This document shows, in pieces, positions 17,835 through 27,268 of a DNA stretch of 33,450 nucleotides (its first letter is position 1; each line of letters begins with the position of its first letter). The notes under the pieces are model-generated. The model had not been told where the DNA came from. It searched no databases and worked only from the letters and a program-made list of their open reading frames with translations. Position numbers and translations under genes: made by a program. Origin of the DNA: Myxococcales bacterium. GTDB lineage: Bacteria; Myxococcota; B64-G9. The DNA is taken from contig JALVPF010000341.1 in the NCBI GenBank assembly GCA_027031935.1, positions 1-33,450 of the forward strand. The letters are read 5' to 3'.

Positions 17835-20723
17835 GTGAAAACAAAGGGGTTTGATGTGCCTAGACAGAGCCTTTTAATCGTGGACGGGGATCCAAAATCC
17901 CTACGGGTCATGGAGGTCAGCCTCCGTAAGGCCGGGTTTTCCATTACTGCTGCCGTTGACGGGGAAGATGCGCTGGAAAAGGCGAAGATCTCTCAACCCG
18001 ATCTGATTATCTCGGATACAAAGATGCAGAACATGGATGGATTCGAGTTTTGCGAGAAAGTGAAGGCCGATCCAATCCTGAAGGAGATTCCATTCATATT
18101 CCTTACCAACCAGAAGGCCATAGAGGACAAGGTTCGTGGTCTGGAACTGGGTGTGGATGATTACCTTACAAAGCCCATCTATATAAAGGAGATAATCACC
18201 AGGGTAAAGATTCTCTTGCAGAAAAAGAAGAGGGAGTCTCTGGAACGCAAGGACCAGAAGGTCAGATTTTCTGGAAATCTGGCTGACATGGGTGTGGTGG
18301 ATCTCATACAGACCATTGAGATCGGCCGAAAGACGGGAATCGCCCTGTTCCATTCTGACACGGAACCTCCAAAGCATGCCACCGTGTATTTCAGGGGAGG
18401 AAAGGTAATAGATGCGGAGCTGGGAAAGCTCCATGGGGAAAAGGCAGTATACCGGCTTTTGCAATGGAACAACGGAACTTTCGAGATCGATTTCAAGCCC
18501 AGCATGAAGCACCCGGACGAGATTTCTCTATCCAGCCAGGCACTGCTCATGGAGGGGATGCGGAGAGTGGACGAGTGGGGACGGATGCTGGAGCAGATCC
18601 CCCCCCTGGATTCCGTGTTCGAAGTGGATTACCTGGAGTTGTCGGATCGCTTGAGTGAGATCCCTGACGAGGTAAACGGAGTACTGCGCCTGTTCGATGG
18701 CAAAAGAACCTTGTTGGATGTGGTGGATGACAGTGATTTTGACGATCTGGAGGCCCTGGGGGTTATATCCAAGTTGTATTTCGAGGGTCTCATCTTTGAG
18801 CCTTCCACGAGGCAAGATGAGCCTGTGGCCACCGAAGCGGAAAGCCACATCGATCAGTGGATCTCGAGGCCCCCACCCCTTGATGATGAATCCCCTGAAC
18901 TAGAGCAGCACAAAGAGCCCGAGGCCCGGGAACCCGAAGCGCAGCAACCCGAGGTACAGCAACCCGAGGTACAGCAACCCGAAGCCCAGCAACCCGAAGC
19001 GCAGGAACCCGAGGCACAGCAACCCGAAGCCCAGCAACCCGAAGCCCAGCAACCCGAAGCCCAGCAACCCGAAGCCCAGCAACCCGAAGCCCAGCAACCC
19101 GAAGCGCAGGAACCCGGGGCGCAGGAACCCGGAGCACAGGAGTCAGTGCAGCTTACGCCTGGTTTGGCTGGTGTTGATGAGAAAGAGAGCCCTGGGACCA
19201 AGCAGGATCTTTCTGAGCCCATGGAGACCCAGGCTGAAGAGCAGATCAGATTTGATTCGGTGGAACCGGAGGACACGGGCGAGCAGAGTTCCTTGCTTGA
19301 TCATCCTCCGCCCGTAATTCTTGAGCCTGAGGCTGCAAGCGAGAAAGAGCAGCCGGCTTCAGAGGCCGCCGTCGAGGAGCAGAAGGTCATAGTGGAGGAT
19401 TTGCCTGACAAACCCTACACTCATGAAATAATGGCGGCTGTCTCTGCTGAGGGTCAAGCCCCTGAATCATCCGGCGAAGAAGCGACTTTTACCGGTATGG
19501 AGAATGCAGCTGACGATACCAGCCCTCAGGCCTCGTCTTCGGCTGACTCTTGGGTGGTGATGGAGAACAAGACAGAGTCTGAGAAGGGAAAGAAGGAAAA
19601 ATCGCCTGACAGTCTTGCTTCCCATGACAAGACGGATCTCTCTGCTGATGCAAAGGCCTCTGAAATAGTTGAAGACATGCTCACCTTGATGCGGCCCAGA
19701 CCCGCTTCCAACGGAATACAGGAGGCGCATGAGCAAAAGGGCACAGCAGAGCCCGTATTGGATGCAATAGTACTGAAGCAGCCAGCTGAATCCGATGCTG
19801 ACACAAAAGAGCAGGAAAACACACAGGCTTCTGATGGTCAGAGAGATTATCAAGAGGGGGAACAGGGCTTTTTTGATGCGGCTCCACCAGTGGATGACGA
19901 TGTGGATTTTCCGGGTCGTTCGAATCGATTTCTCTGGTTCTTTTTGGTTGTAATCATCGGTGCAGGAGTGGGCTATGGGGCTTGGAGATTGGTTCCCATC
20001 CTCGGACAATCAGGTGGAGATGCGGCGACCAATGGTTTGACGCCCGTACCAATGACTCAGGATGGAGGCACGAGATCGACCAAGGGTGTCTCCGCAAAGA
20101 CCAAGCCCAATCAGGATGGCAAGACAACTGCTCTGGCATCTTCTGCCGATGCAGGAATTAAGCATGCCAAGGCCTTGTCTGTGGATGCCGGAGTGGGCTT
20201 GTCTGATGCAGGGTCTTTGTCGTCTGCCACAGGGGATCAAGCAGTCAAGGCAGATTCTGGACAAAAGCTTGCGAATTCAGGCAAGCCGTCTGGGGGCGAT
20301 AAAAAGACCAGTGATGAAAATCAGCCTGCAGATGATGGTTCCAAAACGACGGCACAGGCTGGTGTGGATATGGAATATGCCAAGCTGCTCTCCGATGGCC
20401 AGGCATTCATGAAGGCCCGCAAGTACAGAAAGGCCATAAAGGTCTTGAAAAAAGCCTCGGAGATGAACGACAAGGACTCCAGTGCCCTCGTGGCTTTGGC
20501 CAACGCCTATTTTGAAATGGGATATGACGGCAAGGCCATTATTGCTGCCAGGAAAGCCTTGAAGATCGATCCAAAAAATGGTCGCGCTTATCTGACTCTC
20601 GGAACCATTTATCAGACAGCGGATCAGAATGCCAAGGCCCGCAGGGCATATCATAACTACCTCAAGCTTGATCCAAAGGACAAATCGGCTGCTGAGGTAC
20701 GCAAGATTCTGAAGAATCTCTAA
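17835..20723 (+). CDS. Receiver - DUF4388/PATAN-like - PEAQ repeat - TM - TPR protein (start possibly GTG 17853)
   Basis: [67 protein letters not shown]...[26 protein letters not shown] (DUF4388-like); [26 protein letters not shown]-terminus. Confidence 0.9.
18915..19139 (+). repeat. 15-bp in-frame tandem repeat, 15 units, encoding (Q/E)PEAQ
   Basis: CAACCCGAAGCCCAG unit with substitutions; translation [15 protein letters not shown]...[10 protein letters not shown]. Confidence 0.95.
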
Positions 20724-23108: not shown

Positions 23109-23218
23109 ATCTTCCTGAATCTCAATCAAAATAGAGTCAGGTGACACCAAATGTCCGGGTTACGCGAAATGGCCGAATTTTTGTTTTCAGCCCTTGGTCT
23201 ATTTCTGGGGTAGACTCC

Positions 23219-25450
23219 ATGGCAAACAATGAGCACAACGGTATATCGACGATAAACTCGTTGCAGGACCGTTATCGAATCGTTGCCAAACTGGGTTCCG
23301 GCGGAATGGCTGATGTGTTTTTGGGTATTCAGCTGGGTGAGGAGGCCTTTCAGCAGCTGGTGGTGATCAAGCGTATCCACTCTCTTTGGCTCGACGACCA
23401 GAACGCAAGGGAGATGTTCATCAGCGAAGCAACGGTCATCGCGTCTCTGAGCCACCCCCATATAGTCAAGATCTTCGATCTGAGCAAGCTGAACAAGGAT
23501 ATCTGCATAGTCATGGAATACGTCAATGGTGAGAACCTTGACTATATCCGCAAGGTTTCCAAGAAGCAGAAAAAAAGCATCCCCTTGCCAATCGTTTGCA
23601 AGTGGATGGTGGAGGCCTGTAATGCCTTGCACTATGCTCACACTGCTACCACTCCTGATGGAAAACCCCTGAACCTGGTTCACAGGGATATAGGTCCTCA
23701 CAACCTCATGACCGACAAGCAGGGCTATCTGAAGGTGATCGATTTCGGAATTGCAAAAAGTACAGCCCGAAGTGATTTGACCACACCAGGCATGATAAAG
23801 GGAAAATTTTCCTATCTCTCTCCCGATCTTTTCAAGCACGAGTCCATTGACGGACGCGCTGATCTATACTCCCTGGGACTTGTGTTTTACGAGCTTCTGA
23901 CTGGCAAAAGATGTTTCATTTTCAAAAAAGACGTGGCTGTGGCTGAGGTACTACGGAGGGTGACGACCGAGCATTTGGACCCACCCTCGAAATTGGCACC
24001 CCTCGTCCCACCGCCCATTGATCGCGTGGTCATCAAAGCCCTGGAAAAGGACAGGGATAAGCGATTTCAGACAGGTGCTGAATTCGCCGAAGCCATTAGG
24101 AAGGCTGCGGCTAGCTTTGGAGGGATCGCATCGAGTTCCAAGGTCACCGAGTGGATGGAAAAGGTGATGGGGGACAGAATCCGTAAAAGGCGAAAATTTG
24201 AAGTACGGGCCATTGAAAAGGCCAAGGCCATGATTTCCAAGGTGGACTCCGAAATTGATCCAGGACTCACCACGGGCTCTTTCAAGGCAGCTGATCAGAA
24301 CTCCATCACCGGCCTCAGTCAGTTCAGAATTCAGCATTCCACCCAAGAACAAATTTCGACTCCTGGATCTGTTGTGGTCACTCAGGAACACAAACGCAGG
24401 TCCAATCCTTATCTCATCCTGGCACTCGGCTTTTTACTGTTTGTGGGTGGTGCCTTTCTGGTGCACAGACTGTTTTTTTCTTCTCCTGAGAAGTCGGCGC
24501 ACGAGACGACGGAAGCAGACACCGGTGCAAAGGTCATGGTTCGTGCAGATCACTTTGGTGCCAAGGTTTTCCTGGATGGCAAGGAGATGGGCGTTTGCGG
24601 ACAAAATGGCATATTGTTGAATCTCCAGCCAGGACAAAAACACATACTGAAACTTCAAAAGGAAGGCTACAAACCATATCAGGTATCTGTTGTTGGAAAA
24701 AAGGGAGTCGAGCTTCTGGTGGATGCAAGCCTCGTAGCCCTTGTAAAACCCGGAGACGGCGGCAAGAAGCTTGTGGCTGCGGCAGGTAACACGGAAAATA
24801 TACCTGAAGGCCCCCAGGTCAGTGCCTCCTCTGGACAAAGCAAAATAAGCGACTCTCACAAGGGGCGGAGAAAAAAACATTCGGGGCGCAAGAAGAACAG
24901 GAAAAAGACCCATGGCAAAAAACTGGCTTCAGTGGATGTTTTGAAAAATGCGACTGCTGAGCCGGAGCACAAGGCGGAATCCAAAGCAGAACCGAAAGAA
25001 GAACCTGAACCTAAGCCAGAGCCCAAGCCAGAGCCCAAGCCAGAGCCCAAGCCAGAGCCCAAGCCAGAGCCAAGGTCAGAACCAAGGTCAGAACCCAAGC
25101 CAGAACCGGAGTCCAAGCCTGGGCCGGAGTCCAAGCTGGAGCCGGAACATGCAGTGCTTGCGTCCATAGAACACAAGGAACCCGAATTTATCAGCGGACA
25201 GGGTAACTGGAGTGGCCAAAAGGTGGCCAAGAGGGGCTGTACCCACTGTCACAACGGAGGCAAGGCTCCAAAGCTGAAATGGGGCATTAAATCAGCTAGG
25301 CAGTGGAAGTTTTTCTTCAGGCGCAAGAGACACAACAGACATGCCAAGCTGGGCAAGCTGTTTTCAAAGAAAGAACTGAAATCTGTGTTGGTATATATAG
25401 TTTCTCAGCTTTCAGACGAGGAAAAATCTGGAATAGCCGGCGTGAAGTGA
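23219..25450 (+). CDS. Transmembrane Ser/Thr protein kinase with PEGA-like domain, EPKP repeat and C-terminal CXXCH cytochrome-c-like domain
   Basis: YRIVAKLGSGGMADVFLG, VIKR, LVHRDIGPHNLMTD, KVIDFGIAKS; TM YLILALGFLLFVGGAFLVHRLF; VFLDGKEMG...GYKPYQVSV; CTHCH at 25238-25252; ORF track start 23141 is an extended GTG. Confidence 0.9.
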   Translation: MANNEHNGISTINSLQDRYRIVAKLGSGGMADVFLGIQLGEEAFQQLVVIKRIHSLWLDDQNAREMFISEATVIASLSHPHIVKIFDLSKLNKDICIVMEYVNGENLDYIRKVSKKQKKSIPLPIVCKWMVEACNALHYAHTATTPDGKPLNLVHRDIGPHNLMTDKQGYLKVIDFGIAKSTARSDLTTPGMIKGKFSYLSPDLFKHESIDGRADLYSLGLVFYELLTGKRCFIFKKDVAVAEVLRRVTTEHLDPPSKLAPLVPPPIDRVVIKALEKDRDKRFQTGAEFAEAIRKAAASFGGIASSSKVTEWMEKVMGDRIRKRRKFEVRAIEKAKAMISKVDSEIDPGLTTGSFKAADQNSITGLSQFRIQHSTQEQISTPGSVVVTQEHKRRSNPYLILALGFLLFVGGAFLVHRLFFSSPEKSAHETTEADTGAKVMVRADHFGAKVFLDGKEMGVCGQNGILLNLQPGQKHILKLQKEGYKPYQVSVVGKKGVELLVDASLVALVKPGDGGKKLVAAAGNTENIPEGPQVSASSGQSKISDSHKGRRKKHSGRKKNRKKTHGKKLASVDVLKNATAEPEHKAESKAEPKEEPEPKPEPKPEPKPEPKPEPKPEPRSEPRSEPKPEPESKPGPESKLEPEHAVLASIEHKEPEFISGQGNWSGQKVAKRGCTHCHNGGKAPKLKWGIKSARQWKFFFRRKRHNRHAKLGKLFSKKELKSVLVYIVSQLSDEEKSGIAGVK
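25005..25140 (+). repeat. 12-bp in-frame tandem repeat (EPKP) linker
   Basis: Repeated CCAGAGCCCAAG encoding PEPKPEPKPEPK, flanked by degenerate units. Confidence 0.85.
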
Positions 25451-25474: not shown

Positions 25475-27268
25475 ATGAGACATGAACGCTGGGTACTTGG
25501 AATGGTGTTTTTCTGGATGGCGCTCTTCGCATTTCAAGGTGCCACATGGGCGGGGCCTGAGACCAGGAAAGATCCAGGGGAGACAGAAAAAAAGAGTATT
25601 CAGAAAAAGAAGAAAAAGCCCAGACGTTCCCTTGAAGACCGACTCAGGAGAGTTGGCAGGAGGTTGAGACGAGATCAGCTGGAGCTTGAGAGAATTCTGC
25701 TGGAGGACCTGAAGAAGGAACGCTCCACCACACAGGCCCCACAAGCTGCACCCAAGGTTGATGTGAGCGGTATGGAGGAAAAACTTTCGGATCTGGACGA
25801 GCGCCTCTCTGGGCTGGAGGATGATGTGGAGGGGATGCTGGGAGTTCAGGACAAGCTTCTCAAGAGGGTCAAGAAGGACAAGCTCAGGTGGTCAGCCTCA
25901 TACAGGGCCGTGGTAAACAATTTTCATCTGGTAGACAAGAGCTATGACACCATTCCTGATCACCTTGAGCTTGTTGTGGATGATTTTGGTCAACCGGTGA
26001 TCGATCCGTCCACTGGTCAGGTGATGGCCACGCCAGTATATACCCAGGTGCCCAGGAACCTGGATAAATGGTATGGAAGTCAGTGGTTGAATCGGCTCAG
26101 ATTGACCATGACCTGGGATGTGACAGACAGCTTGAGATTTTATGGTCAGATTGGTGTGTTCAAGTATTTCAATGAACTCCAGAATGAACCGACAACCCTG
26201 GACATGCACACAAACCGGTATCCGCGGGATCCCACCTTGCGCATAGAGAGAGCTTATTTTGACTGGTTCATCTGGGACTGGTTGGTGCTCACCATTGGAA
26301 GGGTGTCGTCTCCAGAGGGCCCTCCTGCGGAACTCAAAGAGAATACCGTACGCAATGCCACCTGGGGTGTACAGATGGTGGAGGCGGAGATGGAAGCAGT
26401 CATGTTGACTTTCCATCTGTCGGGTTTGCTGGAAAATACATATTTCAGGATGTATTACATTCCGTTTCTGGATCACATGGACTTCAGCCTGGCTGATGAC
26501 AGGTTCTTGTTCATGGACTCGGGGATCAAACCCATGCATGCCTATGGTGCCCTGTTCGAGATGAAGATACCCAAGGTCGGAGACAATCTCCTGCAGATCG
26601 GATATGTTTGTGTCCCGCAGTTCAGGCCGAGGAATATCGATATCTCCGTGCCATGGTTGGAAGAGAAGGTCAGCCCATCAGAGCCCACCGGCCAGGATCT
26701 GGGCTCATACTGGATGGTAAACGGCCTCCTGGAATTCAAGAATATCGCAGACAGCGGGCTGGATTTATTCGCAGCCTACGCACTGAGCATTCTCCAGCCC
26801 AGGGAGGATCGCATGATCTATGATGTGCCTGTAAGCTTGCCAATCGTGCATCCTCTGACTGGCCAGCAGGTGGGGACCTATGATGGGACCACCAGGGTAG
26901 AGACAGGTTTGGCTTCGTATGAGGAAGGGAATGGAACCACGAACTTCGGACACATGTTCTATCTCGGCTTCAGATATACTTTTCCCTGGTTCGGAGATTA
27001 CAAGGTCCGCATTGGTGCAGAGGTCAATCATGGTTCCAAGTATCACATCAACTGGAACTCTCCTTCCGATTTGCTCGTAAATCGGCTTGGCACCAAGGGC
27101 TGGGCGTGGGAAGTTTACTACATACAGCAGTTGATAAAGGATCACCTGTTTGCAAGACTCGGATATTTACAGCTCATAAGGGATTATCAGGGATTGCACA
27201 TAGGACCTACCGTTCCCATAGATCAGACAATAGATAATGCGTATCTTCTGATGGAAGCAAAGTGGTAA
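25475..27268 (+). CDS. Outer-membrane beta-barrel/porin candidate (DUF3373-like) with N-terminal coiled coil
   Basis: Signal peptide; coiled coil VSGMEEKLSDLDERLSGLEDDVEG; amphipathic alternating strands (WLNRLRLTMTWDVTDSLRFYGQIGVFKYF); ends in ...LLMEAKW with terminal aromatic. Confidence 0.65.
   Translation: MRHERWVLGMVFFWMALFAFQGATWAGPETRKDPGETEKKSIQKKKKKPRRSLEDRLRRVGRRLRRDQLELERILLEDLKKERSTTQAPQAAPKVDVSGMEEKLSDLDERLSGLEDDVEGMLGVQDKLLKRVKKDKLRWSASYRAVVNNFHLVDKSYDTIPDHLELVVDDFGQPVIDPSTGQVMATPVYTQVPRNLDKWYGSQWLNRLRLTMTWDVTDSLRFYGQIGVFKYFNELQNEPTTLDMHTNRYPRDPTLRIERAYFDWFIWDWLVLTIGRVSSPEGPPAELKENTVRNATWGVQMVEAEMEAVMLTFHLSGLLENTYFRMYYIPFLDHMDFSLADDRFLFMDSGIKPMHAYGALFEMKIPKVGDNLLQIGYVCVPQFRPRNIDISVPWLEEKVSPSEPTGQDLGSYWMVNGLLEFKNIADSGLDLFAAYALSILQPREDRMIYDVPVSLPIVHPLTGQQVGTYDGTTRVETGLASYEEGNGTTNFGHMFYLGFRYTFPWFGDYKVRIGAEVNHGSKYHINWNSPSDLLVNRLGTKGWAWEVYYIQQLIKDHLFARLGYLQLIRDYQGLHIGPTVPIDQTIDNAYLLMEAKW

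Follow-up and report, generated by a model that had tools for sequence, protein, structure and literature searches.

A predicted transmembrane Ser/Thr kinase with a likely c-type cytochrome-like tail and a DUF3373 porin partner in Myxococcota

Myxobacteria are a group rich in Hanks-type kinases. Haem of the c type is attached outside the cytoplasm, and DHC and SHP can use His as the sixth ligand. Domains of the sCache_heme type show NO and redox properties (PMC12889525, PMC3460858), and the text of the sCache_heme preprint makes no mention of Ser/Thr kinases (PMC12889525). In SHP, the sixth ligand changes with the redox state (PMC2909971), and DUF3373 proteins are listed among the outer-membrane pore-formers (TCDB 1.B.62, PMC4827864). 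We analysed a stretch of 33,450 nucleotides from a Myxococcales bacterium (contig JALVPF010000341.1, hereafter the window), in which a Ser/Thr kinase gene is directly followed by a gene for a DUF3373 protein (Table 1). Judged from its sequence, the kinase is likely a transmembrane protein with an extracytoplasmic c-type cytochrome-like domain that uses His rather than Met as the distal ligand. The preliminary description of the window had proposed the cytochrome-like tail and overlooked the downstream porin; once this gene is considered, the sensor probably has a different location and significance.

Table 1. Features of the kinase and its partner gene, in window positions
Feature	Residues	Position	Strand	Basis
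Receptor Ser/Thr kinase with c-type cytochrome-like tail	743 aa	23219..25450	+	Uninterrupted frame; start backed by orthologues
Hanks-type kinase domain, cytoplasmic	19-284	23273..24070	+	Pfam Pkinase 4.2e-39
Transmembrane helix, sole	397-415	24407..24463	+	Hydropathy scan
PEGA-like domain, optional	439-495	24533..24703	+	Pfam PEGA 7.5e-4
EPKP linker, charged, Pro-rich, TonB-like composition		24704..25189	+	Sequence; weak TonB_N/TonB matches
c-type cytochrome-like domain, C-terminal	658-743	25190..25447	+	Conserved in 7/7; weak CBB3/Cytochrom_C/DHC; AF2; Foldseek
CTHCH haem-attachment motif (C674, C677, H678)	674-678	25238..25252	+	C, C and H invariant in 7/7
H705, candidate distal axial ligand, within RHNRH 704-708	705	25331..25333	+	Sole downstream His invariant in 7/7
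DUF3373 outer-membrane porin with N-terminal coiled coil, partner gene		25475..27268	+	PF11853 1.2e-30, 107 vs cut-off 26.1 bits

Kinase architecture and tail-bearing relatives

The longest frame begins at a GTG at 23141, and the ATG at 23219 was preferred as the start on the basis of the orthologue alignment. The catalytic motifs confirm an intact Hanks-type Ser/Thr kinase: GSGGMADV, VVIKR (48-52), HRDIGPHN (HRD 155-157) and DFG (175-177) are all present, and K51, HRD and DFG show no variation among the three closest orthologues. A KRR cluster precedes the transmembrane helix and predicts an N-in, C-out topology; the hydropathy scan found exactly one above-threshold segment in each of the seven tail-bearing relatives. 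The placement of the tail outside the cytoplasm, proposed in the preliminary description, agrees with this topology, and the other parts named there (a single uninterrupted reading frame, the kinase motifs, one transmembrane segment, the EPKP linker and the C-terminal CXXCH) are all seen in the 743-residue translation. The PEGA-like domain that it listed was detected, but with 19.8 bits it falls slightly under the Pfam cut-off of 20.8. As PEGA was detected in only five of the seven tail kinases, the group is defined by the tail rather than by PEGA. The linker sequence is not conserved among the relatives and the distance from the transmembrane helix to the tail varies from 139 to 328 residues in the seven proteins, being shortest (139) in G185. 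The kinase falls outside the PASTA kinases of the PknB/Stk1 type, scoring 238 bits against a cut-off of 450 with NCBIfam PknB_PASTA and having no PASTA domain. Elsewhere in the window, positions 17835-20723 encode a response regulator-DUF4388 protein with a long PEAQQ repeat, a transmembrane segment and C-terminal TPRs.

The host genome contains 51 matches to the window kinase. Across the nine genomes of the host order, two kinases stand apart from dozens of paralogues: that of G007, 56% identical to the window kinase over residues 10-423, and that of G002, 41% identical over 13-511. Despite the unconserved linker, both end in a tail of the window type with CXXCH. We built a profile from these three tails and searched 195 genomes of the phylum Myxococcota with it, finding four further genes from other families (G182, 8e-28; G185, 4e-22; G192, 4e-10; G015, 3e-8) and none besides. 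All four encode a kinase whose single transmembrane segment is followed by a linker and, at the extreme C-terminus, the tail. With the best 28 candidates per genome scored, some members may be missed, and the 195 genomes thus contain at least seven tail-bearing genes, spread over seven genera and five family groups. A second profile round with all seven tails as rows returned no additional member from the 195 genomes; as its rows are its own hits, it does not count as independent support for the seven. Aligning the tail across contigs gave three loci, which are the records behind G007, G002 and G185, whereas the whole kinase protein gave no match in a close-relative scan of contigs; a search of plasmids for the tail found none.

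Retention of CXXCH by homologous kinases had been set beforehand as a test of the cytochrome reading, and all seven tail-bearing kinases keep the motif; it is absent from 26 of 26 paralogous kinases. Identities of the other tails to the window tail range from 29 to 52%. In a tree of the kinase domains, a branch (94/92) separates the seven tail kinases from the others, and none of 500 label shuffles gave a value as low. Within it are two deep groups, one with the window, G007, G002, G182 and G185 kinases and the other with those of G192 and G015. The paralogues in the tree were sampled from the host family only, and a single origin of the tail kinases is on this phylogeny likely, short of proof.

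The C-terminal domain and its candidate haem ligands

The alignment of the seven tails has 11 invariant columns (G9, C17, C20, H21, Q38, W39, F43, H48, L54, S59 and G84), among them the two Cys and the His of CXXCH and H48, which is H705 of the protein. For a random placement of the invariant columns over the 85 positions, the four ligand columns would all be included with p ~1.6e-4, a figure that ignores the conservation of Cys and His in any metal site. The alignment has no conserved Met, and Met is missing after CXXCH in the window tail, as the preliminary description stated, and in five of the seven tails in all. That description had offered either a His of HNRH as ligand or five-coordinate iron. 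H705, which lies in a plausible place for a second axial ligand, favours the first option, while H708 of the same motif is not invariant among the seven tails; the invariance of H705 also makes a five-coordinate haem less likely. The iron would probably be ligated by two His residues.

The Pfam model Cytochrome_CBB3 matched with E=0.011 in the whole protein and 1.7e-4 in the tail alone, and the seven tails had weak matches to CBB3 (6/7), Cytochrom_C (3/7) and DHC (2/7); no Pfam cytochrome model was seen to score above its cut-off in any of the seven, the best for the window tail being CBB3 with 22.3 against 27 bits. The best match in a PDB profile search was to quinohemoprotein amine dehydrogenase (haem subunit; whole-sequence E 1.8e-4), although neither of the matching stretches was significant singly. 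AlphaFold2 predicted a mostly helical tail with a pLDDT of 80.4. In a Foldseek search with this model, the top 14 matches were all cytochromes c or c-containing enzymes, with E of 0.8 or worse and TM-scores of ~0.5; the top folds were the PCMH cytochrome subunit, c6, OmcF, c554 and NirN, none significant singly. Sequence and predicted fold, neither of them decisive, agree with each other and point to a class I-like c-type cytochrome domain. The preliminary description had named a missing cytochrome fold as a second ground for refutation; the prediction did not give this result, though the fold match is modest. In contrast, PF11845 (sCache_heme) gave no match to the window kinase or the tails in Pfam scans up to E 10, and the tail model is mostly helical. 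Past the predicted cytochrome helix, the kinase C-terminus (window 25427-25447) has the form G-x-[K/R] in all seven tails and is disordered in the model; it is a possible docking peptide.

The host genome encodes a CcsA/CcmC-type assembly protein (6e-42), ResB and CBB3-type c domains above the cut-off, and all seven tail-bearing genomes have PF01578 assembly proteins and matches to Cytochrome_C7 (multihaem c). Genes for cytochrome c assembly are common across bacteria and are a necessary but unspecific condition for haem on the tail.

The DUF3373 porin beside the kinase

In its AlphaFold2 model (pLDDT 64), the partner protein combines a beta-barrel with long helices at the N-terminus, and Foldseek matches the model to OmpF-type porins (5.5e-10). 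A DUF3373 gene lies directly downstream of the kinase in six of the seven loci. Close relatives of the porin (E <= 1e-10) were found in the same seven tail-bearing genomes and in none of the other 188. Label shuffling would give this co-occurrence a probability of ~5e-13, but its true weight is lower as the genomes are related and six of the seven pairs are adjacent, and the pattern can arise partly from shared descent or joint transfer. The most telling case is G185 (locus L063), where the porin is on a different contig from the kinase and has no kinase adjoining it. The pairwise identities of kinases and porins are correlated (r = 0.80, with 45 of 5040 permutations as high), a correlation that shared descent also produces. 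The general DUF3373 family profile is found in 14 genomes, seven of them from another family (f9), and the perfect co-occurrence is therefore valid for the close subfamily only.

The f9 form of DUF3373 is much nearer to the Pfam model than the kinase-linked form. In the three f9 loci read, octahaem cytochrome genes adjoin DUF3373 or stand a few kb away, and together with the kinase loci this means that DUF3373 accompanies c-type cytochromes in two different settings. The stretches with the classical DUF3373 near the octahaem (8x CXXCH) cytochrome gene are 6557-10120 of L079, 8590-11914 of L080 and 8666-18299 of L081; L080 and L081 also encode a small secreted protein (about 105-108 aa). The succession of porin, small protein and cytochrome recalls extI-extJ-extKL of Geobacter (PMC5877670), which we take as a lead only. 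No multihaem cytochrome stands beside the porin in the window, where the kinase with its single CXXCH is the sole CXXCH protein.

A secreted alpha/beta-hydrolase (lipase-like) adjoins the kinase-porin pair in three of the seven loci (L046 3169-5253, L047 8942-10882 and L042 10807-12903), with a second copy at 11036-13117 of L046 and an unlinked relative in the host genome (G000:C21). The hydrolase, beside the kinase in G007, was considered as a general third co-inherited part and rejected: its strong relatives are confined to G000 (unlinked), G002 and G007, and weak relatives occur in 108 of the 195 genomes. In both members of the G192/G015 group, the porin gene is followed by one for a lipoprotein-like protein with no Pfam match (L045 448-1434, L044 5529-6413).

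Possible mechanism, alternatives and related systems

Taken together, we find it reasonably probable that the protein is a receptor Ser/Thr kinase of Myxococcota that carries a periplasmic c-type cytochrome sensing end on a Pro-rich arm, acts at or near the porin and signals by haem state or contact. The apoprotein would receive its haem outside the cytoplasm from the cytochrome c assembly system of the host, and the iron would be ligated by His678 and His705. The composition and length of the Pro-rich arm suggest a reach across the periplasm, and the arm could allow the c-haem tip to work at, or close to, the DUF3373 porin. The separation of the two genes in G185 and the mere 139 residues of its arm weigh against this arrangement. 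The signal may be a change in haem state (redox, or NO or CO displacing His705) or contact of the tip with the porin, and it might alter the dimerisation or position of the kinase and thereby change the phosphorylation of cytoplasmic targets. With two His ligands, the haem could respond to redox potential, or NO or CO could open it, a proposal based on the sensing of NO by c-haem Cache domains (PMC12889525) and the sixth-ligand change of SHP (PMC2909971). A porin-cytochrome-kinase receptor, in which a dedicated barrel receives the c-haem tip at its periplasmic mouth and the tip reports outside redox or ligands to the cytoplasmic kinase, is a possible but doubtful form of this arrangement.

The host assembly consists of 613 contigs and the cytochrome Pfam score of the whole protein is marginal, as might be expected of a chance motif, a mis-assembled metagenome bin or a decaying fusion, yet the same architecture is found in seven separate genomes, in one of them on a 906-kb contig, with invariant ligands and no internal stops; the genes found with the tail profile and the ligand invariance in the seven genomes refute this explanation, which we regard as extremely improbable. 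The invariant C, C, H and H could instead be ligands of zinc or of some other metal, or the two Cys could form a disulfide switch, the cytochrome likeness then being convergent: CXXC with two His can also make a zinc site, a treble-clef zinc finger is weakly matched by one member (E 0.11), and the cytochrome profiles score under their cut-offs. Yet all seven have a His right after the second Cys, which c-haem requires, cytochromes c account for every better-scoring Pfam match and for the top structure matches, and the predicted topology places the domain outside the cytoplasm, where c-haem gets attached. We therefore hold a zinc site or disulfide switch to be improbable.

Our main rival to a sensing haem accepts the haem and gives it another role, in electron transfer or as a structural element aiding kinase folding, docking or reception of a protein signal from the porin, so that the signal is neither redox nor gas. 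TfcP of M. xanthus, with a His/Cys haem, acts on PilY1 instead of serving electron transport (PMC8833165), and it is this service to a surface protein that gives the structural role its standing. The consistent porin partner fits such a role, and the conserved QW..F and C-terminal G-x-[K/R] of all seven tails could be contact surfaces. On the other hand, the c-haem domains studied in fusion with signalling modules behave as NO or redox sensors (PMC12889525), and we consider a non-sensor haem unlikely. If haem is attached, the protein would be a c-haem-sensing Hanks-type kinase in a kinase-rich group, and its fixed porin partner offers a hypothesis for how an inner-membrane kinase learns of outer-membrane conditions. 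DUF3373, a family of unknown function, gains a likely role alongside c-type cytochromes, and the architecture and porin point to an undescribed mode of redox or gas sensing at the cell surface.

The window kinase resembles the transmembrane Hanks-type kinases (the PknB/Stk1 group and myxobacterial Pkn, some with PEGA) in having the kinase inside, one transmembrane segment and a sensor outside, and departs from the PknB/Stk1 type in that its sensor is a CXXCH c-type cytochrome-like domain. With sCache_heme proteins (DUF3365/Tll0287; the MCP sensors GSU0582 and GSU0935 of Geobacter) it shares the putative extracytoplasmic c-haem domain joined via a transmembrane segment to a signalling module, but those domains have a Cache/PAS-like fold with an inserted CXXCH and are found on histidine kinases, MCPs and GGDEF/EAL proteins, whereas the window tail is mostly helical and forms the C-terminus of a Ser/Thr kinase. 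Like class I cytochrome c, CBB3, DHC and SHP, the tail has CXXCH after an N-terminal helix, a C-terminal ExL..V..YI helix and a His near the sixth-ligand position; in DHC, 17 residues separate H51 from the YL signature (PMC2909971), and in the window kinase 20 lie between H705 and Y726. Unlike class I cytochromes c, it scores under the Pfam cut-offs, has no distal Met and is joined to a kinase. TfcP of Myxococcus xanthus is likewise a myxobacterial noncanonical cytochrome c that serves a cell-surface system (PMC8833165), the haem of the window tail being putative; TfcP differs in its His/Cys ligation and in being soluble in the periplasm, with no kinase. As in the porin-cytochrome conduits (Pcc/Mtr/Ext), a gene for an outer-membrane beta-barrel is paired with a c-type cytochrome gene, but here the cytochrome is a single CXXCH domain on a kinase, too small alone for electron transfer across the membrane. 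In the open-access literature, with most subscription papers outside the search, we found no report of a cytochrome-c-tailed or c-haem-sensing Hanks-type Ser/Thr kinase and, in the open-access literature again, no description of the kinase-DUF3373 pair; the word 'cytochrome' is absent from the STYK architecture survey and the kinase classification paper. Histidine kinases and MCPs with c-haem sensors are already known, as are, each by itself, the enzyme and the type of haem domain; what looks new is the combination of a Ser/Thr kinase with a c-haem domain and the partnership with a porin.
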